This document shows, one piece after another, positions 21,351-60,092 of a DNA stretch of 64,000 nt (the first letter of the stretch is position 1; the number at the start of each line of letters is the position of its first letter). Below the pieces are notes generated by a model. It searched no databases. It was given only the letters and a program-made list of their open reading frames with translations, and had not been told where the DNA came from. Origin of the DNA: Syncephalis plumigaleata (lineage: Eukaryota; Zoopagomycota; Zoopagomycetes; Zoopagales; Piptocephalidaceae); NCBI GenBank assembly GCA_025201365.1, contig JAIXMF010000006.1:868001-932000 (forward strand), in the 5' to 3' direction. A program made the position numbers and the translations under genes.

Positions 21351-21749
21351 TAAATAATACGCGTTCTAAAAGTGCTTAAAATACAATATGCGAATACGTT
21401 GTAATGTTTGCACTAAATATCATGGTTATAACATTAGTAGGATTGTTTATTAGATAGATATCAATAATGATTTCTTAGGAATAGGAATAGTGCCATTGTA
21501 ATTGTTATTCCTGTTCGGTATTCATTGATTTGAACCATTTATTTATCGTCTGGTTGCTTACAAATGTAATAATAATGCTTTATCTTAAACATGAATGTCT
21601 ATACTCGTGTATTCACTTAATATCATTGCTCATACAAAACATCAAAGCAATGAAGAAGTAAGAAATGATACTATTGCGTTTATACATTCTTGAATGAGTA
21701 AGCTAGATAACATCATAGGGTATTCAAATAATTACGATAATTATAATGG
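21351..21749. other. intergenic region between convergent genes
   Basis: About 400 bp of AT-rich sequence after the RBR ligase stop. It contains AATAATAC directly after the stop as a possible poly(A) region. No coding frame seen. Confidence 0.4.
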
Positions 21750-21930
21750 TCAAAACACGACATATTTATTCAATAAGCGATTGAATGGACTTGTAGATAT
21801 ATTTGCTGTTGTTGTACCAAGGAATAATGACTTGAATGACATGGACACTAAATGAGGGACTTGTAGTACCAATTCATTCTTGACTTGAATACCTATGATA
21901 TCTACTTGATGATGTCCTCGTCTTGTTTGA
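21750..21930 (-). repeat. 3'-UTR homologous to that of the micro-exon gene
   Basis: On the minus strand this is the 3'-UTR of the 43-residue peptide gene and ends with AATAAATATGTCG (poly(A) signal at about 21764-21776). It aligns from the stop codon onward with 34234-34460 on the plus strand: shared blocks include CATCATCAAGTAGATAT, GGTATTCAAGTCAAGAATG, TTCAAGTCATTATTCCTTGG and TTATTGAATAAATATGTCG. The other copy has an intron just after its stop; this one does not. The three length differences are 6, 6 and 3 bases. Confidence 0.85.
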
Positions 21931-22062
21931 TTATTTGCTATTGCTTTTAGCAGGTTGAGCAGGTCTATGACCAGGAGCACGGCGTTCGACAGTAGTACGA
22001 CGCATTCTAGTGGGCTTGGCTTCAACGGCGACGGCAATAGCGGTGATGGCAGAGAACTTCAT
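21931..22062 (-). CDS. small secreted basic peptide
   Basis: Intronless frame of 43 residues, ATG at 22062, TAA at 21933-21931. It starts MKFSAITAIAVAVEAKPT, a short signal peptide with probable cleavage after VEA, and continues as an arginine/proline-rich tail (MRRTTVERRAPGHRPAQPAK). The dibasic RR sites could be cut by a Kex2-type protease. I recognise no family. Its 3'-UTR is clearly related to that of the micro-exon gene at 30652-34450, which is the main reason to think it is a real transcript. An overlapping frame in the same strand (22037-21750) is open for 95 codons, and its downstream part is also open in the other copy; which frame is translated cannot be settled from sequence. Confidence 0.45.
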   Translation of the reverse strand: MKFSAITAIAVAVEAKPTRMRRTTVERRAPGHRPAQPAKSNSK

Positions 22063-22375
22063 GTTGATGTTGGCCTAATGGAATTGATATGCAGAAAAGC
22101 TGACTAGAACGAGAATAGAAAGTAGTGGTATATACGAGTAGTGATAGTAGATAGTAGTTAGAGTAGAATAGAACAGAAGAGCGAGTATAGTAATAATAAG
22201 AATGAAAGAAATTGGACTGCTACGCGAACATATAAATAATTAGAGCTATTGATTCTGTTATTGTAGTTTATATTACATGTGACATGACTCAGCACTATTA
22301 GAATTTTGCTTTTCTCCTTATCGCCTATTCTCTTGACTAGCAGTGTTACTATTAGTGTTATTATTGCAATTGTCA

Positions 22376-24923: not shown

Positions 24924-27900
24924 ATGACTAGTATTAACAACACTACAAGTACGCCGAGTAGTGAAGAAGCGAATCATCAGTCGAATAATCAAACAGACTC
25001 GACACTTGTTTATAAGCAACTAGTTACAGAACTACCACCGAGACCACGAACTGTTGAGGAGAAGCTCGCTAATCACCGTCTAGTGCAAAGGTTAAAGGAA
25101 CGACAAGCGGAAAGGGCACCCAAGCGAGGTGGAGGATGGCGTACAGGTGGTAAGCTGCTCAGATTTACATTGCAGTCGATATCGTTGTTGTCTACGGATG
25201 GACAAGCCGAGGATATAATGCTGGAGAGTGTTCGATGCGACGAGTTCTCCTACTGGCACGTACCATGTCCATTACCTACAATGGCTCGTGGTCTATTTAT
25301 TCGAATGTGTGGTGCCGATGATTTCCTACCGAAAGATGATCCGGGTATTAAGCCAGATGGACTAATAGGTCAAGAAGTGTTAGAGACATCAACGAAGCTA
25401 GGCTATGAGATTGTCATACGTGGCTATGACAAGTTCTTTTCCTACAATGAAATGCCGTCAACGAAGGTAAAGACGATCATATAAGAATGACATGAATATG
25501 CTTATAACAATAGCAATAATAATAATAATAGATGGAGGCATTAAAGGCTAATACCACTGGACCGTATGAAGTTAGTACCAAGGAGAATGGCTGTATCGTC
25601 TTCGTTGCTGCATTGTCTCCCACACAATTAGTGGTGAGCTCGAAGAATTCACTAGGCGATGATAATGCACCAAGTCATCCGCAAGTGGGCAGAAAGTGGT
25701 TGCATCAGCATTTGAAGCAAGCAAATCGAACACAACAAGAGTTTTGTCAATTCCTCTATGATCAACAGGTGACGGCGGTATTCGAGGTAATCCACTTAGC
25801 GGTGATTACAATGACGTGTAGCTTATTAGATTGCTGGTTTAGTTGTGTGATGATGATTTCGAAGAGCATATAGTGGCGTATCCATCATCTAGACGTGGTC
25901 TCTACCTGCATGGCATCAATCGCAATACGACCGATCTACAAACATGGCCTATCGATCAGGTGGAGCGTGTGGCGATTGCTTTTGGTTTCCATGTCACGCA
26001 ATATCGTTTGTTTGATACACTCGAGGAGGTGATCGCCTATTGCGAATCGATACAATCGGAACAGACTATCTACGATAATGGCAAACAAATGGAGGGGTTT
26101 GTCATTCGCAGCAAGTATCGCTCATCATCATCGTCGTCGCCGAGTAGTGAAGACGGCCGGAATAAGGTGTTCTTCTTCAAGTACAAATTCGACGAGCCTT
26201 ATCTAATGTTTCGCGAATGGCGTGAACTCACCAAGCGATGGCTGGCCGGTAATCATACATCACCACGCTACGAATGGTCGGTCGACTATCTCAAGTGGTG
26301 TAAGGCAGCGTACAAGACAAATCCGGAATTATTTGCAAACTACCAGAATAATCATGGTATTATCGCCGTAAGAAATGCATTCCTCGATTGGTGGCAGGCT
26401 CACAATAAGGAGCCTAAAGGCGCGCAACAGTTATCGAACAAAACACGCAAACATTTGAATCAATCCGCGTTTAATGAACCAATTGTTAAGAAACCAGATA
26501 TGCCTACTAATCTACTGGTAAAGAAACCGCTAAATATACCTGTAAAGAAGTTGGTGATTGCTCCAGTGGCCACTATTGGATGTGGTAAGTTGCTTTGTTT
26601 ACCATGAGTAATAATAACCATTGTAATTGATCGTGTACAACTAGGTAAAACTACATTATCACGAGCATTGGCCGATCTATTAAAGGCAGAGCATGTACAG
26701 AATGATAATATTGAAGAAGGCAGGGGGAAACGTGTAAAGTTCAATGCAATGCTTGTTAAGGCACTCGAGAATCATGACATTGTCATTGCTGATCGGTAAG
26801 TAGGGAATGATTTGCATATGATGTCAATAATGTTAACACATGCCATGCTAGTAACAATCATATGCCGGATCATCGAAAGAATATCGCCGAGACTGTTCGA
26901 AGTGCATGTCCACAAGCGGCTCTAGTTATTATTTATTTTAAACAAGCGGAACAAGGAGCACAATTTGAATTGGCCCTACAACGTATTCAAGAGCGTGGTG
27001 AACATCATCAATTGGTAACACCGAGTAAGACTCCCAACTATCGAGGCATTATCAGAATGTTTCTACGGGATTTCACCCCTCCCGATCCCAAGTTGAATCC
27101 AGAAGACGCGGTATATGATCTGATTATTTCGATAGAATCCGCGGATACAGTGGAGAATAATCTCAATCATGTTCTATCGAAACTATTGCCCATCACCGAT
27201 ATATCGCCACCATCTTCGTCGGAAATAGCGGAAGCCGCTAACAAATCTCTTCAATACCGATTACCCATTGATGGGACGCCAAAAGTATCGTCTCGCATAG
27301 CTGTTCCCACTTATATTGGAGTGGAGATCAAGCCGGATGCAATTACTGATCGATTAGTCGAGTGTCTAAAGAAGGCGAATCAACTACAATTCTACGAGCA
27401 ACTAGTAGCCGATCAACGTGTTTCCGTTACTTTTCACGTTACGCTTTGTCATGTTGCCGATAGATATTCAACGCCATGGAGTAAGGATATGTGGAATACT
27501 TACATGACACATATTCAGAAGAGTGATCAATCCACGCCACCACTCGATATCACCATTAACATCACACATATTGTATGGAATAATGAGGTGATGGCGTTGA
27601 AGGTCGATTTGGTTGCACCAGATTGGATTAGATCCACTAATGAGTATCCGCATATTACGATAGGCACGCGTAGTGATGTAATTAGAGCACGTCAGTCGAA
27701 TGTGCTAATGCAGAAAGCATTCACTGCAGTGAAATCAACCTCAGAGAATGATGCAACATCAAGTAATATTGCGAATAAATCCGATATACTCGATGCATCA
27801 CTTCGACAATCTAATACTTCCTATGCATCCAAGGCTGCCAAATCCATTGATAACATTGCACCAACTACTATCACTACTATCACTACTACTACTACAAATA

Positions 27901-27977
27901 ATAATGCATCGCCTTCGATTATTAAGTTGGATGAACCTTGGATGATAACTGCACCACTTATGGCTTATTACAAATAA
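24924..27977 (+). CDS. TRL1: fungal tRNA ligase (ligase, kinase and phosphodiesterase)
   Basis: Exons 24924-25466, 25532-25786, 25843-26584, 26645-26795, 26852-27977; 938 residues in frame. The multifunctional enzyme heals and seals tRNA halves after intron removal, and in yeast also HAC1 mRNA. N-terminal ligase: EVSTKENGCIVFVA carries the nucleotidyl-accepting Lys in KxNG, followed by LCDDDFEEHIVAY, MEGFVIRSKYR and VFFFKYKFDEPYLMFREW. Kinase: P-loop VATIGCGKTTLSRAL, split by an intron inside GCG/KTT, and IADRNNH. C-terminal cyclic phosphodiesterase: the two HxT motifs are seen as FHVTLCH and YPHITIGT. Domain order and length match fungal Trl1. Exon-intron borders were fixed by keeping the frame through these motifs. 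It shares the upstream gap with the POP3-like gene. Confidence 0.93.
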
Positions 27978-29605: not shown

Positions 29606-30161
29606 TATGTAAAAAGTAAAGCGATATGCTACTAATAATATGCAACCAAATAGCAAGCAAGGCTGTAGTTGTCGTCGTCGTCAAGCTAGTTTAATAGAAT
29701 CTGCTGTCCTAGTCCCTACAAAAGCACATAGACACGCAAACAGATGTGCAATGCTGATGAGTTCGACAGTTACCGCAAATAGACAGGTAGAAACAGTGTC
29801 AACTGTAAAGGACGAGCACCAATATAGGAAGAGAGAGAAGGAAACAAGCTATTCGTTTGGAAACATAGAATTATATAAAAAATAAAAAAATCAGTCATTG
29901 GCTTCTACAGTGTGTGTATTTTACACTCCTATCAAATTTCATTTTCTCATTCTTTAATTGATATCTTATAGTGTGATTTTTTGTTTACAGTATTCAGCAG
30001 AGAATATGCTAGATTAATATTATATAACAAGTGTATGTTGGAGCAATAGAGTATAACCAGCCATGATGGTTGTAACAGGTATAAGTGACAATATTGATGT
30101 AGTATTCTGGTAATTTTGATATGTAGGTTCAGACAACGGACGGAGCACACGTTTACACGAC
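29606..30161. other. intergenic region upstream of PRPP synthetase
   Basis: About 550 bp of AT-rich sequence with no gene I can support. It should contain the promoter of the minus-strand PRPP synthetase gene. Confidence 0.4.
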
Positions 30162-30510
30162 ATGGCAGACATTAACAATGGCAAGTCAGCGTATATCTCA
30201 TTGTTTAATTAGTATCAAGTAAATGTAGCATCTATAATCAATCAATGAATAGTGCTGTCATACTGATAGATACTAGTAGTAGTCATTGTGGATCAGGTAA
30301 AAGTGTCTAGATGTGATCAATTCGATTGCGTATCTACTGTTCGATATCCATATGATTGATATGACACAATTACTGTCTGTCTGATGTTCATTAGGACAAA
30401 GGCGACATTCATGCATGGTAGCATCATTCAGAAGCAATTATTGGATATGCGATGCTATCGATTTGTCTATTCTGCAGGGCATTGTTGTATTACAACTATT
30501 CCACCTATAA
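30162..30510 (+). CDS. possible three-exon small gene, unknown
   Basis: Exons 30162-30184, 30253-30296 and 30395-30510 join in one frame to 60 residues ending in TAA, directly followed by AATAAATAATG, a good poly(A) signal. The second exon contains AVILIDTSSSHCGSG and the third RRHSCMVASF and ILQGIVVLQLF. The second intron has a reasonable donor (GTAAAA) and an acceptor CATTAG; the first donor (GTCAGC) is poor. The poly(A) signal and coherent frame argue for a transcript. I recognise no family, and it may be a non-coding or decayed unit upstream of the micro-exon gene. Confidence 0.25.
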
Positions 30511-30651
30511 ATAAATAATGATAATCGATTCATCTTACCATCATCATCATCAAGCGTGTGTCTACTCTTTTTATTCTATTCTATACTCATTACTCCATTT
30601 CGTTTGTTTGTTTGTTTGTTTCTCTTGCTCTTCCATAAGGACAATATCAAC

Positions 30652-33600
30652 ATGGAATCATCTGCTGATAATAACAATAACAATAATGGCCAGCCTATAG
30701 TCAATGCTACAACATCCGTATCATCAAATTCCACTGGTATTTCTACCATCATCATCATCATCGATACTAGTCAACATACTAATCGTAATACTACTATCTA
30801 ATGGTCTTTCTAATGACAATCAATAGATGGTAAGTCTATATCGTATGACATTGATTGCAATGCTAATGATTATGCCACATACAATGATGTCAATCATAGT
30901 TGGTGAGTTAAACAACGAGTGATCATGACATACGTCGTGTTGACTGGAATGTAAATCAAAATCATATATTACTATTCTAGATTCAGACGTAAGTTGATAT
31001 TCTGTCTAAATAAACATACAACGTACTAATTGCAATACTCGTATGACAGGATGTGAGTTGTGAATCACGATGATGCTGTGCCATACGCTCATTGGAATGT
31101 GGCAATCGATTCCCGTATGATTATCATGCATAGGAACACGTAAGCTACTAGTATCATTGCAATGAGCCATTTGATTCACGTATGATTGCATGTATTAGTG
31201 GGTAAGCGAGCACTCGTTGGAATGTGGCATTCGATTCACCGATGATGACGCGTAATAGATTGTAAGTGGGCGGTATTCCGATTGCAGTATACGTCATACT
31301 AATTGCAATGGCACAATTGCTTCACTTGTCATTCCACACACACACACACACACACACGACAGCATGTAGGTGATCATTTCGATCATAGCATACGATGTGC
31401 TCATTACAAGTTGACATGCCATGATACGTGTACGATGACCTGTAACAGGATGTAAGTTGCTAGTCTAGCATTACCGTATAATGTACTAATAACAACAACA
31501 ACAATCATCATTCTCTTCGCATATGATTGCACTAGTATGTAAGTGGACATTTCCATACTAATGCGTGATGTGTTAATAACAATGCATCACACACACATAT
31601 ATATATATATACATAATAGATTGTAAGAAGTTAGCATTCCAGTCTTACTAGTTGATGTACTCATTACCATATGGCATACAATTCACATATGATTACGAGT
31701 AATAGTATGTAAGTGATGATCATTGCAATGTGCAATCGGTTAATTACAAATTGATTGATGATTCACATATGCATCCATGTAACAGAGGGTAACTAGACAT
31801 TCCTATCGTGATATGTGCGATGTGTTAATCGAAATGAGGAACATGGTTCATGATGGATGATTACACGGCATAGACTGTAGGTTGGCATTCTAGTATCAGT
31901 ATACGGCATGCTAATCATAGTATTTATTTATTATTGCGAATAATAGGAGGCAAGTCATTATGATGACTATAGAATACGATATGCTAATTGTAGCATGATA
32001 CATGATTGACTTGTAACAACATATGCAGAAGAAAGTAAGCTAGCACTCCAATAATAATCACAATAATCATAATGAACATACAATTCATATACGTGTGTGT
32101 GTATGGTGATTACACGACATAGGATGTAAGTTGACACATGGACTACAATCCCAAAATGTAGCTCACCTATGACTATGGAATACAATAGGCCGTAAGTTAT
32201 CATTTCGATTGAAGCATACGAGACATTGATTGGAGTGTGGAATACAATCAATTCAAATACTATCACGTACAACAGAAGGTAGGCTAGCATGTTAATGACA
32301 ATAGACAGTGCACTAATAGGAATGTGGCACATGATTTGCATACGATTATGCACAGCGAATAGTAAGCTAGTACTATAATGACAATGAGTGATATGCTAAT
32401 CGTGACGTGGCATACAATCCATATGCATTTATGAATGGCAGGGAGTAAGTAAACATACTGATTTCACCATGCGATGAGCTAATTATATCGTAAAATTCAT
32501 GTATGATTATGAATGGCAGTATGTAAGCTAGTATTATGATTATAGCATACGATGAGCTAATCGCAAATTGATATACACTTTACGTTGGAATACACGTTAC
32601 AGTTTGTAAGCTAGCATACTGATTTCAGCATGTGATGTGATAATTATATTGTGAGACTCACGTATGATAACATGTAAAAGGAGGTAAGTTTGCTTAATTA
32701 TTACAGCATACGATGAGCTAATCGTAAATTGGTATACGACTCACACTTATGCACATCAGACGGTAGGTTTACATAGCAATTATAGCATACGACAAACTAA
32801 TTGAAATTGATGTACAACTCACTTGTGCTTACGCACATCAGTTCGTGAGTCATAATAATGATTACAGCATAGGATGAACTAATTGTAATTGATGCGCAAT
32901 CCATCTATGATCACATATAACAGGAAGTAAGTAGACATAGCGATTGCATCGTACAATGAAGTAATTGTTATCGGTGTACGGTTTGCCTATGATCGTATAT
33001 AACAGGAAGTAGGTTTACATATTAATTACAGCATACGATGAACTGATCGTAAGTGCTGTACAATTCACTTATGCTTATGCGCATCAGTGGGTAAGCCGAA
33101 ACTGTGACTACCGTATACGATGAATTAATCGTAATCGGTGTACAATTAATGTATGCTCATCCGCCTCAGTCAGTAAGTTTGCACAGCAGTTGCAGCACAC
33201 AATGAATTAATTGTAAATTGGTTTACAATTACTTATGCTTGAACGTAACAGAAAGTAAGCCGAAATAGTGACTACCGTATACGATGAACTAATCGTAATC
33301 GGTGTACAATTCACTTACGCTTATGCGCATCAGTGGGTAAGCTAAAATAATGGTCATTTCATACAATGAACTAATTGTAAGCTGGTATGCAATTGATGTA
33401 TGATCAACTATAACAGAAAGTAAGCTAGTATTACCATCACAGGATACGATGTGTTAATCATAATGAATACGACCCATATGTGATTACAAATGATAGAATG
33501 TAAGTTATTTTTCAATGTTACCGCTGAATGAACTAATTGCAAAATGCTCTATGTTTCGCATATGCTTACATTTAATAGGAGGTAAGCTGACATGCTGGTT

Positions 33601-34450
33601 ACAATATGTGACATGCTAATGGTAATGCCATTGAATGATTCACATAAAACTGCAATTATTAGAAGGTAGGTTAGCATTCCAGCTAATTTCCACAGCACAT
33701 TAATCGTATTGTGGTATACCATTGACCGTTGATTATGTATGAAAGGAAGTGAGTCATCATTCTGATTACAATCTACGGTATACTAATCGGAATGTGATAT
33801 GTGCTTGTATCATTATTATTATAGAAAGTAAGCAGACACCAAATGATAATGCATCACGCACTCATTACAATGGGATTACAATCCACGTATAATCATTTAC
33901 AGAAAGAAGTAACTTTTGTCGTTTGATGTGGTCAAGCATCTTGTGAAGCTAATCCACTGTTGTATGGCATAGTTGGAGGAAGCGAATCAACATGTAAGTT
34001 GATGTCACGATTACAATCTACGGTATACTAATCGAAATATCACAAATGATTAACGTATGGCTGCATAATAGCTTGTAAGTTGAAAGTGTCAGCTAGTAGA
34101 CATGAAGCATTAATCATAGTGTGACATACAACTCCCGTATGATCATGGATACTAGGATGTAAGCTAGTATTTTTAACATTGATACGTCGATCTAATCACA
34201 ATACGCTATACATTGATTGAACGATAGGAAGATTAAGCAGTAAGTAATAACCCACAATAAGCATACCCATACTAATCCATTATGATTACAGGACAAGACA
34301 AGGATATCATCAAGTAGATATTATAGGTATTCAAGTCAAGAATGTATTGGTGCAAGATCCTTTAGTGTCCATGCCATTCAAGTCATTATTCCTTGGACCA
34401 AGAAATATATCTACAAGATCATCATTCAATCATTTATTGAATAAATATGT
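30652..34450 (+). CDS. micro-exon gene: 45 exons, most of one codon each
   Basis: Predicted coding sequence 30652-34236, 84 residues. Exon 1 is 30652-30736 (N-rich start, MESSADNNNNNNGQ). Then exons beginning at 30827, 30900, 30981 (8 nt), 31050, 31134 (6 nt), 31199, 31259, 31363, 31449, 31536, 31620, 31706, 31786, 31874, 31947, 32029 (6), 32123, 32189, 32276, 32356 (6), 32442, 32520, 32603, 32681, 32760, 32842, 32924, 33006, 33088, 33170, 33252, 33334, 33417, 33497, 33579, 33663, 33746, 33825, 33903 (6), 33973 (21), 34072, 34156, 34228 (12, TAA at 34234-34236) and 34292 (3'-UTR). All unmarked exons are 3 nt. Every intron is GT-AG except one GC-AG (31950). The spliced protein is hydrophilic and helix-prone (IGYFETFEEWSKWKNEK, then KKELEEANQHLDED). 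The other two frames contain stops. Function unknown; splicing is inferred, not shown. Confidence 0.7.
30830..34291 (+). repeat. tandem family of 43 diverged introns
   Basis: The introns share a layout: GTAAGY-like donor, a purine-rich start often followed by TAGCAT, a block like GCATACGATGARCTAATCG containing the CTAAT branch site, then GTATACAATTCACRTATGMTTATG-like sequence and a YAG acceptor. Lengths run from 52 to 101 nt. From 32763 to 33333 seven consecutive introns are exactly 79 nt, so with their 3-nt exons the sequence has an 82-bp period. Similarity is strongest in the middle (introns 22-33) and fades to both sides. Ordinary introns in neighbouring genes do not show this consensus. 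Confidence 0.85.
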
Positions 34451-34460
34451 CGTATTTTGA
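34292..34460 (+). repeat. 3'-UTR copy shared with the secreted peptide gene
   Basis: Last exon of the micro-exon gene. It carries the same 3'-UTR as the peptide gene at 21931-22062 (opposite strand), with AATAAA at 34440-34445. The alignment extends back to the two stop codons (TAAGCAGACAAGAC here, TAATCAAACAAGAC there), interrupted here only by the 52-nt intron at 34240-34291. Confidence 0.85.
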
Positions 34461-34791
34461 TCATTCTACAGATAATTAGTAGTAATACAATGATCCATTA
34501 TGCAGCTCAAATAACAAACGGAATAAGTTGACAATGCTTTAGACTAGCAGCAGGTAACAACTCGATGAATATTAATCATTTACATTGGAAGATTCAAATG
34601 GTCAATCCATAAAGATGACTTTTACAAATCAATAAGCCTTTACATCCAAAAAGTAAATAAGAAGGTCAATGCAACAACTGCACCATTATCGTGTTACCGA
34701 CATTGATTGTTTCATTTTACTAATATTTATTTTACCGTAAATCAATATACACACTGCAATCGTTTATAACATACATGTCATAGTAAACTGA
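34461..34791. other. intergenic region between convergent genes
   Basis: About 330 bp of AT-rich sequence between the micro-exon gene and the 3' end of ORC3. Nothing else recognisable. Confidence 0.4.
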
Positions 34792-37700
34792 TTATCCAGT
34801 TCCCCAGTTGAGTCGTTCAACATGATCTGTCTTTCGTTGTGTAGGCTTGATCATACCAAGAAATTGCAATTCAGCCACTGATTGAACAAAGCGCGCACTA
34901 ATATATATATACATTATTGGTATTAATTAATATCGAATTACATGAGATCATAACAGATTTACTTACCGTAATGTCATTGACTCTTCATCTTGCTCGTCAT
35001 TGTCTTCATCGTCATCTTCATCATTATTCGCATCTCCATTGACAATTGATCGATAGGCAACAAACCAATCGTGTAGATTTATCCACCGACCACACTCCAA
35101 GTATAACTGATACAGGATTGATGTATCGGGTTGAGTCGAAAGAATCGATCCTGACTTGTCTTTGCAACAGGCACAGCCAAGATAATGAACAGGCAAGCGT
35201 AGCGCTGTTTGCACAGTGGCACGTAGTTGAGGAGTAAAAGCCTAATAGAACAGCAATATTAGTAAGGGTAAGCATCGTATAGTAATAGCCAATGATTTGC
35301 AGTGTACCTTTTGCAATAAGGATGAAGATGAGAAATAAAGACATTCATAGAGTGTATAATGTGTATGATGAATAAAATCTCGTCTACAATAATGTGACAT
35401 TAGTAATGGTGTTGATAATCATGATTATTTGTTATACTTGCTTGAAGAATGCCTCCAACCAATCGGCCACACTTTTAACGAGCTTGGAGTATTCGACCTC
35501 GGCCGGTTTAGTATCAGCGCGTAGTACAGCAACACTTGATGATGATTTCTGAGTAGTTCGATTCATTTTCTCCCATGGACTTTGTATGACAATCTCGGAT
35601 AGATCTCGTTTCTTGTGTTTGTGCAATGCTCTAAAGTCTTGCTCCACCGTGTCGAGTGTTTTTAGGAAATTATTAATACATTCTAATTCAGCTTTGTGCA
35701 TATCACTATCACTAAACAGATCCTGTACATCTAAAAGAATATTACGAAGTTCCGCGGAATCTACTTGTCTATCAATTAATCATCGAGTATTAGTGAGTGT
35801 TCGATTAACCAGTAATAACTGCCTGTGATGAATATCGAAGCGTTCTTGCCTTCACTTACTGTACTGCTTGACAGGTTTGAGTAACCAAGGGCGAATCGCC
35901 TAAATCTTCCCTTAGAGCAAACATGTGTACAACACGTAGTTCACGTCGTTTGCCCGGTAGTGTGGACAACTGACTCTGTAATGCCAATAAAGTGTGAAAT
36001 GCCACGGCTATCTTGACCCTATGCACGCGTAGTGCTCTAATCCATTTAGGCACGCATACTTTTAGCAAGTAATCATCGTCTTCCAGTAATCTAGCCGCCT
36101 CCAACGGTAATGAATCTAGTGTTTCTACATGTCTATTACCACGATGATCATGATTAATCCTACTATATAGCATAAGAGAGGTGTGTGTAATTACTTTTGA
36201 AATGATGGTTGCATTCGAATCCATTCCGCATGATCCTCGACAAGCCATTCCGCGGCAGTTTCCAAATGACTATTAGGCTGACACGGCATAAAACTTAATG
36301 GATTCGCGTAGAAATGAGCCATTACCGAGTACTAAATGCATTATGCCATTATTATTATTATTTCTTCATTAGCCTATTCATTGCATGCTTACATGTAACG
36401 TGTTAATCACCGAGTCAACAGACAAATTGTGCAATGTGAATCGATCCAGTATCAAATTGAATGGCGCTAATCCTAGTTGAAAGCCATAATCACCCGAGAT
36501 AAACAGCTGCATCATTTCGTTAATAGAGTAATAATAAGAAAGTGAATCTATCTCACAATCACTTACATGATCCACCAAGCTATTAACACACTCATTGGCT
36601 TCTTGTAGTTTAAACTTTTCCGTTCTTAACAAACATAGTGCCGAGAATGTCAATGATTGATGTACCGCCTCCATCGATGTTGCTATTCCAAACACGAATA
36701 CAAAGGGTAATCTATCCGTATATTCACTAATAGTAATTCCATTCAGTGTCATTGTACCTATATATCTATCCATTTACATCTTCATTTACTTACCTGCAAA
36801 CAGTAATAATATCATGTAATACTGTAGTGTCAAAGCTTTCAAAATCCTGGAATATTACTACTAATTGTGATGCATCCTCTATATTATCACATCAGTATCC
36901 ATTATTATTACTAATATACATCATCTAATTACTAACCTTTAACCAAATGCTCATACCACGCAAGCAATGTATGAATATCGAAATCAGACATTCGACTTTT
37001 CCTTGGCTATATTGTACAATGAATGATTAGTCTATGCACACATTCTAGTCAATTTATTTCTCTCTCTCTCTTTCTACTTACTTTATCATGTAAGACAAAT
37101 TCAGATATTGGATCATCCTAATCATATATGAAATGTTAGTGAATAATGACTAGTATAACATATCTTACTACCTCATTCCTATCAGGTTCTAGTGACATCA
37201 TTTCTTCTTCTTCTATATCCGCATCATCATCTATTTCATTATTGTCCTCCATTGGTGTATTAATAAATTGTGCAATGATGGATCGCATTGCTGAACGGAT
37301 ATCATGACATGATGCAGCTCGTAATAATGCCACATAATGACCTGGACTCTTAATGCCAAGAGTCGACGGACGTGTTAGCGTGTCAGCCATACGACCAAAT
37401 ATTAGATTATGATCTGGAATATTGATTCCTAATATGTATAACATTAGATTACAAAGTAAATGCTTGCTATCAATCTACTATTCCTTACCTGCAAACACTA
37501 ATGCTGTCGGTATTTCATGTCTAGGCAATGATATAGCACTAATGAATAATAAGTGATTAGAGATTATATGTAATAATAATAGTTATACTAGTAGTTACTT
37601 TGTATTGTTTGATGCTTGATATGCTCTGTCGGTGAAATGAACCAATGCTTCAAATGTAGTACTTTGTGCATCTTGTATGATAGACTATAGTATGAAGAGT

Positions 37701-41112: not shown

Positions 41113-42324
41113 TTACTCTTCTTCCGATTCTTCCTCGGATTCCTCTTCCGCTTGTTGTAGCCAGACTAGGAATGGTTCTGCCGCTGCACGAACCTTCTTG
41201 CTAACACTTCGTTCGACGTAGCGACGACTAGGCTTGGATCCCCATTTGAGCACTACCTTCTCCTCGATGATATCCTCATCGTAAAGGACCTTCAATACTG
41301 CCGGTAATTTAGGCATGAGATCCGGGTATTTGTTACCTACTAGACGTTCAATGCCACCTAGCAGTGATTTCTGTGCTTTCTCGTTCGACACGAATTCACG
41401 AAGTAATGGTGCACGTTTGCGTACTTGTTGCACTAGTTTCTCGTTAAAGACGACTTGAACCAGTACAACAACAACACGATGCTTGCCAAATACATTCATT
41501 TCCTTGGCCTTTTCAATGATTTGCTCATCATTCCAGTCGGGATTCTTCTCGACTTCCTCGCCAAATCGATCATATACCGTTGGACCGGAACTACCCTCAT
41601 CGTCATCGTCATCGTCGTCATCCTCTCCCAACACTAAGGCAGTGCTAATGGATGATTCCAAGGCACGCATACGTTGTGCTTGAGCCTCTTCACTCACATC
41701 AACCGCCCAGTCATCATCGTCGGCAATGGCAGCGGGTGCTGCCGGTAGAGCTGCCGCCTCTTCACGAATACGACGAGTAAGTTCGTCGTCAGAATCTTCA
41801 CCGTCTTCGGGTGAACCATTGCCTGCATCATCACTGCCGCCCTTCTTGCCCTTACGCTTCTTGCCGCCTGTGCTGCTGGCAGTTGGCGGTGGGTTCTTGA
41901 TGATGAATGGCACCAGACGATGTCGCATGTCAATATCGGTACGTTGACCGCACGCCTTGCAATCGCGAACAATCGTGCCATCCTTGTTGAAAATCAAATC
42001 GGTTTCCGGATTCTTGCATTCACCGCACAGAACAAATCGCGTGATAAATCCATCGAGTAGCGATTGAAGCTTACCGGCCTCATGCGCACCGTTTACGATA
42101 TAACGCTCGTTCTTCGAGTCATACTTGGTTTGAGCACCTAGCTCGCAACCGAAATACTTGCATGGATACATGGGTGGCCGACTAAGCGACTTGCCGATGG
42201 CTGCCATATTGGGAATAACAGTCTTAATACCGTTGCCTTTACCTTCGACCTTGGCTAGAAGGCGTGGCATCTTGTACCGATAGAAGGAGTCCTTTACATC
42301 GGAACGAATATTCATAGTCGCCAT
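41113..42324 (-). CDS. TIF5: translation initiation factor eIF5
   Basis: Intronless, 403 residues, ATG 42324, stop at 41113. eIF5 is the GTPase-activating protein for eIF2 in the 48S complex. The GAP domain is nearly invariant: FYRYKMPRLLAKVEGKGNG, with the Arg of FYRYK (residue 16) as the catalytic arginine. KYFGCELGAQTKYD and the C2-C2 zinc finger FVLCGECKNPE and DCKACGQR follow. A Lys-rich linker (TGGKKRKGKKGG) and an acidic segment lead to the C-terminal W2/HEAT domain, ending with the aromatic-acidic boxes PFLVWLQQAEEESEEESEEE that bind eIF2-beta and eIF3. An in-frame Met at residue 4 is an alternative start. Confidence 0.95.
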   Translation of the reverse strand: MATMNIRSDVKDSFYRYKMPRLLAKVEGKGNGIKTVIPNMAAIGKSLSRPPMYPCKYFGCELGAQTKYDSKNERYIVNGAHEAGKLQSLLDGFITRFVLCGECKNPETDLIFNKDGTIVRDCKACGQRTDIDMRHRLVPFIIKNPPPTASSTGGKKRKGKKGGSDDAGNGSPEDGEDSDDELTRRIREEAAALPAAPAAIADDDDWAVDVSEEAQAQRMRALESSISTALVLGEDDDDDDDDEGSSGPTVYDRFGEEVEKNPDWNDEQIIEKAKEMNVFGKHRVVVVLVQVVFNEKLVQQVRKRAPLLREFVSNEKAQKSLLGGIERLVGNKYPDLMPKLPAVLKVLYDEDIIEEKVVLKWGSKPSRRYVERSVSKKVRAAAEPFLVWLQQAEEESEEESEEE

Positions 42325-43204
42325 TTTGTTGGATGTAGTATGCTTGTTATAGTATCAATCACAGCTGTAAAAGTCGAGAAAATCGCAGCGATAGCGGTAA
42401 TATTGGTGTTGTTGTTGTTAATGTGAATAATGGTGGCAGCAGCGAAGGCAGAATAGCAATGACGAAGCGTATTTCGTGTAGTGAAAAGGTAGAGACACGG
42501 TGGGTCCAGCAAGTGACTTGTTATTACTTCTTACGTTTGATAGAACGGCGTCGGCGCTTACTACAAGATTGTTTCAGCGTCGTCGTCAGGTGTATAAAGG
42601 TTGTTGGACGGGAATACAACATGAACAAGCAGCAGCGCTGGCTGACTATAGGAAGAAGACAAGGTAAGTAAAAAACGAATAATAACAAGGTGAGGGAGTA
42701 CTTGCAGTAAGTGTGTGGCAATCAAACGATAGATCTCAATAAACGACAATGACAACAAATCAAATAGTCTGGATTGCAAATCAAAGTATATGAGTAAGGG
42801 AATATATCCTAGATGAGTGACAATACACGCGTACTAGGTGTAGAATAGCTGATGACTGATCGCGATTCAACTACAAATCAAAGTGGGATGTCAGTGTTGT
42901 GTTGTGGTGGTGGTGAACACGGTAGTTTAACAGTAAAAAAATAAGAAAGAAAGAAAGAAAGAAAGAGAAGAAAAAAGTTTGATCAAGTAGAATATGGATG
43001 TGATGATGCAGATGCTTATAATGATGATGTGGGTGTACGCTGTTATAGAGACAAGTATGGTAATTTTTTCACTTTTTGATCCCGGAAAAAAAGAAACCTC
43101 ATTAGTTTAGAACTGGCAGATTAGTTATAGTGATCATTGATTGGCGGGATAATGTATGACTACTGTTTATTAAAAGACAGATTATCGAGAAAACCTTATT
43201 AATT
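42325..43204. other. intergenic region eIF5 to NOC1
   Basis: About 880 bp. An AAAG microsatellite lies at about 42945-42966. A tiny plus-strand frame (about 42620-42750, MNKQQRWLTIGRRQ, followed by a GTAAGT donor) is open, but I cannot support it as a gene. The segment should contain the eIF5 promoter. Confidence 0.4.

Positions 43205-57638: not shown

Positions 57639-60092
<2,454 letters not shown>

Follow-up and report, generated by a model that had tools for sequence, protein, structure and literature searches.

A predicted gene in which most exons are single codons lies on the forward strand of a 64,000-nt stretch of the Syncephalis plumigaleata genome (contig JAIXMF010000006.1; this whole stretch is the window referred to below). 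Rebuilding from the raw DNA gave 44 coding exons between 30652 and 34239, of which 36 have 3 nt, four have 6 nt, and the other four have 85, 8, 21, and 12 nt. They are separated from each other and from a last, untranslated exon by 44 introns with a median length of 79 nt (Table 1). These counts agree with a preliminary description of the same DNA, which was amended in two details. The 8-nt exon had been named as the only one whose length is not a multiple of three; this holds for that exon, but the 85-nt exon 1 is not a multiple of three either, and the two compensate, with exon 1 ending in phase 1, the next two exons remaining in phase 1, and the 8-nt exon restoring phase 0. The gene had also been read as far as 34291; the chain of exons stands, but TAA sits in the 12-nt exon 34228 to 34239, and the exon that begins at 34292 is 3′ untranslated region (3′UTR). 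Joined in order, the exons form one frame of 84 codons followed by TAA, MESSADNNNNNNGQPIVNATTSVSSNSTDVDSDDEHWIHDYIYRTEKKDAKRIGYFETFEEWSKWKNEKEKKELEEANQHLDED, and the presence of stops in both other frames was likewise reproduced (two in the +1 frame, many in +2). With 3 or 6 nt in 40 of 44 coding exons, the gene has the tiny exons of one phase that mark micro-exon genes (MEGs) in the broad sense. The start of its protein is not signal-peptide-like.

At all junctions from 30737 to 34228, GT or GC lies directly 3′ of the exon and AG directly 5′ of the next. The donors (n = 44) were GTAAGT (16), GTAAGC (13), GTAGGT (5), GTGAGT (4), and GTAACT (2), with one each of GTATTT, GTAAGA, GCAAGT, and GTAGGC; acceptors preceding coding exons were TAG (21), CAG (20), and AAG (2). 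A splice search blind to reading frame returned 41 introns with a score of 244 from the stretch 30000 to 34999, two of them outside the gene and with some of its introns missed or merged. The other strand of this stretch gave eight introns, and twelve control pieces (six 5-kb window segments, both strands) gave 4 to 13 introns with scores of 11 to 35. A CTRAY-like branch motif was present in 69% of 727 introns from 29 family loci and the window, most often ∼42 nt before the intron end. These 29 loci and the window gene were chosen as family loci rather than sampled at random, and two overlapping loci, L032 and L033, are both counted in the intron, triplet, and spacing figures.

Table 1. Predicted features of the microexon gene, the intron-free copy, and other genes of the window and its scaffold (the neighbors are fungal)
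Feature	Coordinates	Strand	Remarks
Exon 1, ATG...ACTG	30652..30736	+	85 nt; donor GTATTT; ends in phase 1; aligned in 15 copies
3-nt exons ATG, TTG	30827-30829, 30900-30902	+	Phase 1; all 15 aligned copies have acceptor TAG and donor GTRAGT
8-nt exon ATTCAGAC	30981..30988	+	Restores phase 0; acceptor AG kept in 14 of the 15 copies aligned, the exception being L029
Microexon run	31050..32361	+	Starts: GAT 31050, GAACAC 31134, TGG 31199, ATT 31259, CAT 31363, GAT 31449, TAT 31536, ATT 31620, TAT 31706, AGG 31786, ACT 31874, GAG 31947, AAGAAA 32029, GAT 32123, GCC 32189, AAG 32276, CGAATA 32356. All exons from GAT 31050 to AAG 32276 could be aligned in 15 copies, with damage in L012; CGAATA 32356-32361 aligned poorly
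Microexon run	32442..33908	+	Starts: GGA 32442, TAT 32520, TTT 32603, GAG 32681, ACG 32760, TTC 32842, GAA 32924, GAA 33006, TGG 33088, TCA 33170, AAA 33252, TGG 33334, AAA 33417, AAT 33497, GAG 33579, AAG 33663, GAA 33746, AAA 33825, AAAGAA 33903. Some introns form 82-nt tandem units
21-nt exon TTGGAGGAAGCGAATCAACAT and 3-nt exons CTT, GAT	33973..34158	+	21-nt exon 33973-33993; CTT starts at 34072, GAT at 34156
Stop exon GAAGATTAAGCA	34228..34239	+	12 nt; in-frame TAA; donor GTAAGT directly 3′
Last exon (3′UTR)	34292..34465	+	AATAAA 34440-34445; 3′ limit approximate; junction supported by intron-free copies
Introns	30737..34291	+	44, of 52-101 nt
Intron-free secreted-type copy	21744..22188	-	Coding 22062-21931; AATAAA 21770-21765; limits are those of similarity to relatives
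HSP60	57639-59483
Fungal tRNA ligase	26811-27977
eIF5 gene	41113-42354		Nearest among named organisms, Syncephalis pseudoplumigaleata (84%)
GenBank protein BDF22DRAFT_655074			S. plumigaleata; on the scaffold of the window

The unit of one codon between two introns recurs many times in the 32.6-Mb genome (383 contigs). A strict form, GTAAG-N62-90-YAG-NNN-GTAAGY, was found 2,648 times (1,417 + 1,231), against 142 (72 + 70) for a reversed-pattern control, whereas the same unit with four bases instead of NNN occurred 54 times (29 + 25), against 218 (94 + 124) for its control. Within the chosen family loci and the window, YAG and GTRAGY were 3 nt apart at 955 places on the coding strand and at 3 on the other; for 4 nt the figures were 7 and 13. 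Fifteen gene models made without regard to frame, also at chosen family loci, contained 966 internal exons, among them 786 of 3 nt, 74 of 6 nt, 30 of 21 nt, and 20 of 2 nt; most of the 2-nt exons are miscalled 8-nt exons, and a number of long exons are mispredicted at insertions or weak sites in the copies. Frame-aware dynamic programming models, which ran past TAA into the 3′UTR, chose the wrong 2-nt exon, produced false long exons, and halted on L012, were set aside, and the counts rest on the frame-free models, reading of the sequence, and the hand-checked window model.

Nine further loci have long similarity to the window array, one being an allele-like partner. The first-exon region matched 34 places in the genome at 72 to 100% identity, and 235 candidate copies of the last exon were located, of which 40 were scored, at 88 to 100% identity. 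The 3′UTR exon (window 34292-34465 and the family 3′ ends) exceeds the coding arrays in both copy number and conservation. In places the assembly looks two-haplotype, with long stretches present twice between similar flanking genes (window and L009, 95.6% over 9 kb; L010 and L013; L011 and L012), so that loci are fewer than matches. The family perhaps amounts to one to a few hundred loci.

Judged by its predicted protein, the window gene is a member of a branch without a signal peptide, whose copies start with MESSADNNNNN or a near variant. In five of six short-form models of this branch, an exon ending TAAGCR after whole codons is in frame with the gene's own start (L013 differs). Long forms continue through LFGxxAFxKKQKD to an 8-nt exon, AATAAAGG or a variant. 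We infer the stop frame of the long forms from this exon; in the frame that it sets, the penultimate exon would end in TAA in four of 11 long forms (GAGTAATG), and in the other seven, where it reads GARGAATG, TG and the first base, A, of the last exon would form TGA. A 367- to 408-aa frame lies head-to-head beside three window-branch arrays (L010:7850-8950, L013:8080-9180, and L017:8121-9344). In the secreted branch, an exon resembling a signal peptide, such as MKLSAVLAIAVAVVAVASLVAVEAKPALARR, was read by eye at 10 of 12 loci and matched also at L024. By the same reading, the start of these proteins would be a signal peptide and their RR a putative Kex2-type site. In L027, the 3-nt exons after this exon add AVVERRAPNPQD, followed by the tail EPTTGEEE; tails vary from gene to gene, and the TAAGCR stop exon is in frame with its own start at all 12 loci. 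A GenBank protein used as a query, P0122, gave 309 candidates, 150 of them scored; among the matches listed, most begin at residue 1 and about 30 (hand count) cover the tail only. The microexon series of L032 (C318:148900-158890) and L014 are broken by gaps of ∼4.5 kb and ∼1.7 kb, probably insertions.

The triplets behave as codons in several respects. The 727 array triplets of the chosen loci and the window use 55 codons and include no stop, against 29.6 stops expected from positional composition; after homologous sites were collapsed, 188 triplets still contained none, with 7.0 expected. Genome wide, the triplets of strict units included one TAA or TAG (control, 27), six TGA (control, 6), and 100 TAT or TAC (control, 7). 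Two of the six TGA sites (C112:2052746 and C226:2765) lie ∼650 bases downstream of a signal-peptide exon, and these may not be stops, because triplets there may still be in phase 1. In 158 triplets of the secreted branch, GC content at the three codon positions (0.61/0.46/0.49) was similar to that of four host open reading frames (0.56/0.42/0.45).

Comparison of paralogs separated the splice sites from what lies between them. Of 15 aligned window-branch copies, 14 were used, L012 being dropped for its frameshifts; allele-like copies (window and L009, L010 and L013) were kept as separate rows, so that cells are not independent. Donor positions +1/+2 diverged by 0.9%, donor positions +3 to +6 by 1.6%, the acceptor AG by 2.6%, and intron bodies by 7.5%, and there was no gap among 1,036 aligned microexon cells. 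The microexon triplets differed at 13.5% of sites, more than the introns (the hexamer at 32356-32361 is left out of triplet comparisons and codon counts; one per-site figure that includes it is 0.167, against 0.135 without it). Pairs of triplets differing at two or three bases made up 10.9% in microexons and 2.6% for intron triplets. Changed and unchanged triplets had flanks of about equal similarity, with the clearest exception at 32276 (0.83 versus 0.89). Along the protein, WIHDYIYR is nearly constant among paralogs, and later residues are variable.

The preliminary description had pointed to an intron-poor relative as a test of the gene, and such relatives were found: two intron-free members of the secreted branch match spliced L027 across its 3-nt exons and into the 3′UTR exon. 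The copy in the window has an intact 43-codon frame, MKFSAITAIAVAVEAKPTRMRRTTVERRAPGHRPAQPAKSNSK, followed by TAA, with the 3′UTR exon fused directly behind the stop exon. The second (C1:1600050-1600480) begins MKFSAIIAIAVAVVALTSLVAVEAKPALARRAVV, loses the frame at a 1-nt length change, and continues into the 3′UTR exon. Both align with the joined exons of L027 through CGTCGTR, CTR, YTG, TCGAAC (shorter in C1), GCC, GTG, and CTC, and both pass from the stop exon to AACAAGACRAGGACATCAT without an intron; their variable tails differ from that of L027, as expected for other members. Similarity between the window copy and ten intron-rich copies starts 63 to 126 nt before the ATG and ends 11 to 28 nt after AATAAA, whereas intron-rich L027 shares 89 to 711 nt upstream with nine other intron-rich copies, at least 200 nt in eight of them (for L018, L020, L022, and L026, as a gapped or split match). 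We take the window copy to be derived from a spliced mRNA, with limits that are suggestive only. In either case, retrocopy or ancestor, the joined triplets hold as coding sequence. Five contiguous, stop-free stretches located by search, at four loci and in a probable allele, match the window protein at 36 to 41% identity over 71 to 78 residues; they include C112:2230044, C325:40703, C223:1257193, and C318:1455890, and suggest candidate intron-free members in the window branch as well. Upstream of the L012 array (∼1000-1200), a decayed fragment holds a 5′UTR-like GGCCAACATCAACATGAAG and part of the 3′UTR and is probably a degraded processed copy.

A GenBank protein from the same scaffold as the window, P0001, has 135 aa, among them TNHEADEEHWIDYIY. 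The first exon of L038 (C340:754600-755900) encodes an identical start, and at that locus, mapped by eye, P0001 needs ATG, AAGCAGAC, GAG, GAACAC, TGG, ATT, GAT, TAT, ATT, and TAT to be joined; on the simplest reading of the locus, its junctions are those of eight 3-nt exons, one 6-nt exon, and one 8-nt exon. P0001, a gene model annotated separately, fits the predicted junctions. In the window gene, intron 1 (30737-30826) is partly open in frame (GISTIIIIIDTSQHTN...), and P0001, which belongs to a paralog, treats that part as exon; exon 1 may have two donors of the same phase.

The best explanation of these observations is that the window holds a real spliced gene belonging to a large family with mostly one-codon exons, and the probability of this joint statement is put at about 0.9 from sequence analysis. 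The intron-free relatives, which are the best evidence, and P0001 fit the predicted junctions and lend indirect support to the proposal of a gene of mostly single-codon exons with which the preliminary description began. Several observations weigh on the other side. TGA is not rarer among strict-unit triplets than in its control, and CAG is absent as well (0 of 188, with nine CAA), so protection of splice sites may explain some of the avoidance of stops. The weak correlation of triplet codon usage with that of host genes (r = 0.26) was uninformative, intron triplets giving nearly the same value (r = 0.23). The ratio of nonsynonymous to synonymous change (dN/dS) in aligned microexons is 0.98 (0.131 and 0.133), which gives no sign of purifying selection on the protein, synonymous change being raised too; such equality could arise from diversifying selection that alters several bases at once, from change that is locally raised at the triplets, or from intron constraint. 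Between the window and L009, microexons differ only slightly more than introns (11 of 173 sites, against 153 of 2,970). No poly(A) tract was visible by eye in the intron-free copies, and among intron-rich copies similarity likewise stops at about this 3′ position, not far from the poly(A) signal, for which reasons the mRNA-like limits are suggestive only. Damaged copies exist, namely L012, with frameshifts and a 1-nt deletion in exon 1, and the C1 intron-free copy. P0001 skips the 3-nt exons CTG and CAT, uses a later exon 1 donor of the same phase, and holds unplaced sequence, so that not every exon need be included.

Four other explanations were weighed. Tandem Repeats Finder reports 82- and 164-nt arrays within 32905-33425, and units are alike across positions and loci, as they would be in a diverged ∼82-nt minisatellite with GTAAGT and YAG in each unit and a frame open by chance. 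Such a repeat does not account for 55 codon types without a stop, for triplets more variable than the surrounding unit beside nearly fixed splice sites, or, the strong point, for two copies in which the triplets are joined; the minisatellite reading was rejected on these three grounds and retains only the slightest probability. Recursive splicing might instead remove the whole stretch in one piece or as a few large introns, with the triplets as ratchet points that are usually dropped; this would agree with the skipping of two 3-nt exons in P0001 and with a phase that permits skipping in frame. However, the stop lies inside the array, at 34228, the triplets carry coding signals, and the intron-free copies retain them, which makes this account very improbable.

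Dispersal of many copies with a highly similar 3′ end, and the 34 places matching the 5′ exon region, would also be expected of a mobile element family whose arrays are cargo or noncoding filler. Frames inside the arrays reach at most ∼140 codons in the eight loci listed (they were not searched for homology), and the copies encode distinct open peptides, many with a signal-peptide-like exon, so this is improbable, if slightly less so than wholesale excision. The alternative to be taken most seriously, though still unlikely, keeps the arrays spliced and reverses the history, with intron-free copies ancestral and introner-like introns having invaded nearly all codon boundaries. The introns do resemble one another, and intron-free members occur in the secreted branch and probably in the window branch. 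Against this, the upstream similarity of the window copy is short beside that among the intron-rich copies compared with L027, and duplication of a unit made of one codon and its intron is a simpler history than dozens of insertions exactly between codons.

The favored reading, a spliced family of one-codon exons, finds its closest counterparts in animals. Schistosome MEGs are described as having exons of 6 to 36 bp that make up ∼80% of the coding region (PMC5825161), and, as described there, they share with the Syncephalis family the series of small symmetric exons and a parasitic lineage; their products are almost always secreted or exposed, and those of Syncephalis are predicted to be mostly secreted. 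They belong to flatworms, however, and the typical Syncephalis exon is one codon. The same source reports that schistosome MEGs vary their proteins by alternative splicing, a possible further parallel to the Syncephalis family. In aphids, the gene KQY1a is given as 37 exons of 6 to 416 bp over 45.7 kb, and the bicycle and cassette effectors (KQY, KHI) are described as joining a conserved signal-peptide region to a divergent mature part that many tiny exons encode (PMC7495047); bicycle exons are also reported to be of one phase (PMC9168663). By eye, the form of a signal peptide followed by a divergent tiny-exon part is seen in the secreted branch and not in the window gene. Unlike the Syncephalis genes, these are insect genes that are far longer and have larger exons, and bicycle exons are phase 2, not phase 0 after a short phase-1 start. 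A word-based search of 5.8 billion proteins, of limited sensitivity for short, fast-changing proteins, detected no homology to schistosome MEGs or to bicycle or cassette effectors; two queries gave one match each, both from S. plumigaleata. In Pfam there was a subthreshold RED_C match only (13.9 bits; cutoff, 27).

Isolated exons of 1 to 3 nt are known in plants and flies, and intronless copies have been ascribed to reverse transcription-mediated intron loss (PMC8831610, PMC8042270). In the parts of these reports cited, such exons stand alone or as two adjacent ones (5 and 12 nt), whereas Syncephalis has dozens of single-codon exons in a row. The microexon of Xlr2 in Trichoderma virens, a filamentous fungus, is regulated, and according to its authors there was no earlier description of one; the sections cited describe one microexon in a transcription factor gene, and neither an array nor a family (PMC11121469). 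No description of arrays of one-codon exons was found in the literature on tiny exons, fungal microexons, Syncephalis, and Zoopagomycota, which was covered in part and with few subscription journals. We read the window family as a convergent, extreme counterpart of the schistosome and aphid microexon genes.

Splicing of such arrays would proceed by intron definition and would have to be ordered, because a 3-nt exon is too small for 3′ and 5′ splice-site complexes together. For plant microexons, the flanking introns are likely removed consecutively, since a tiny exon cannot serve both introns at once (PMC8831610); applied to the Syncephalis array, this argument leads to ordered intron removal. 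The simplest order would be stepwise from 5′ to 3′, each ligation adding one codon to a growing upstream exon, as each ligation leaves GTAAGY right behind the now longer exon and thereby brings the next donor into play. Recursive splicing at the ratchet sites of flies is also stepwise, and every step regenerates a donor. The order proposed for Syncephalis differs in that three coding bases would be retained at each step.

Because the array exons consist, with few exceptions, of complete codons of the same phase, the frame would survive the gain, loss, or skipping of units. With predicted signal peptides and dibasic sites in many relatives, the family is read as hypervariable, mostly secreted peptides built codon by codon. 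Syncephalis is described as a mycoparasite (PMC10386755), and the family may serve to diversify peptides that are short, mostly secreted, and processed in the Kex2 manner, for use on its fungal hosts or against them. A more tentative proposal, to which we give somewhat less than even odds, is that Syncephalis builds a secreted-peptide repertoire one codon per splicing event, with thousands of similar introns each carrying an exchangeable codon, with duplication, loss, recombination, or skipping of units rewriting peptides in frame, and with codons replaced faster than introns.

The window gene is not a single freak, given ∼2,500 units above control in one genome (alleles counted), and about 40 one-codon exons in a row would mark a physical limit for intron definition. 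The family would offer a natural system for strictly ordered splicing, for two complexes sharing three bases, and for the multiplication of spliceosomal introns. Since gene finders and read aligners probably handle such genes badly, others may be hidden. After flatworms and aphids, the fungus would provide a further independent tiny-exon secreted family among parasites and plant feeders, and if one codon is indeed added per splice, the spliceosome would serve as an assembly line for an arsenal of hypervariable peptides.

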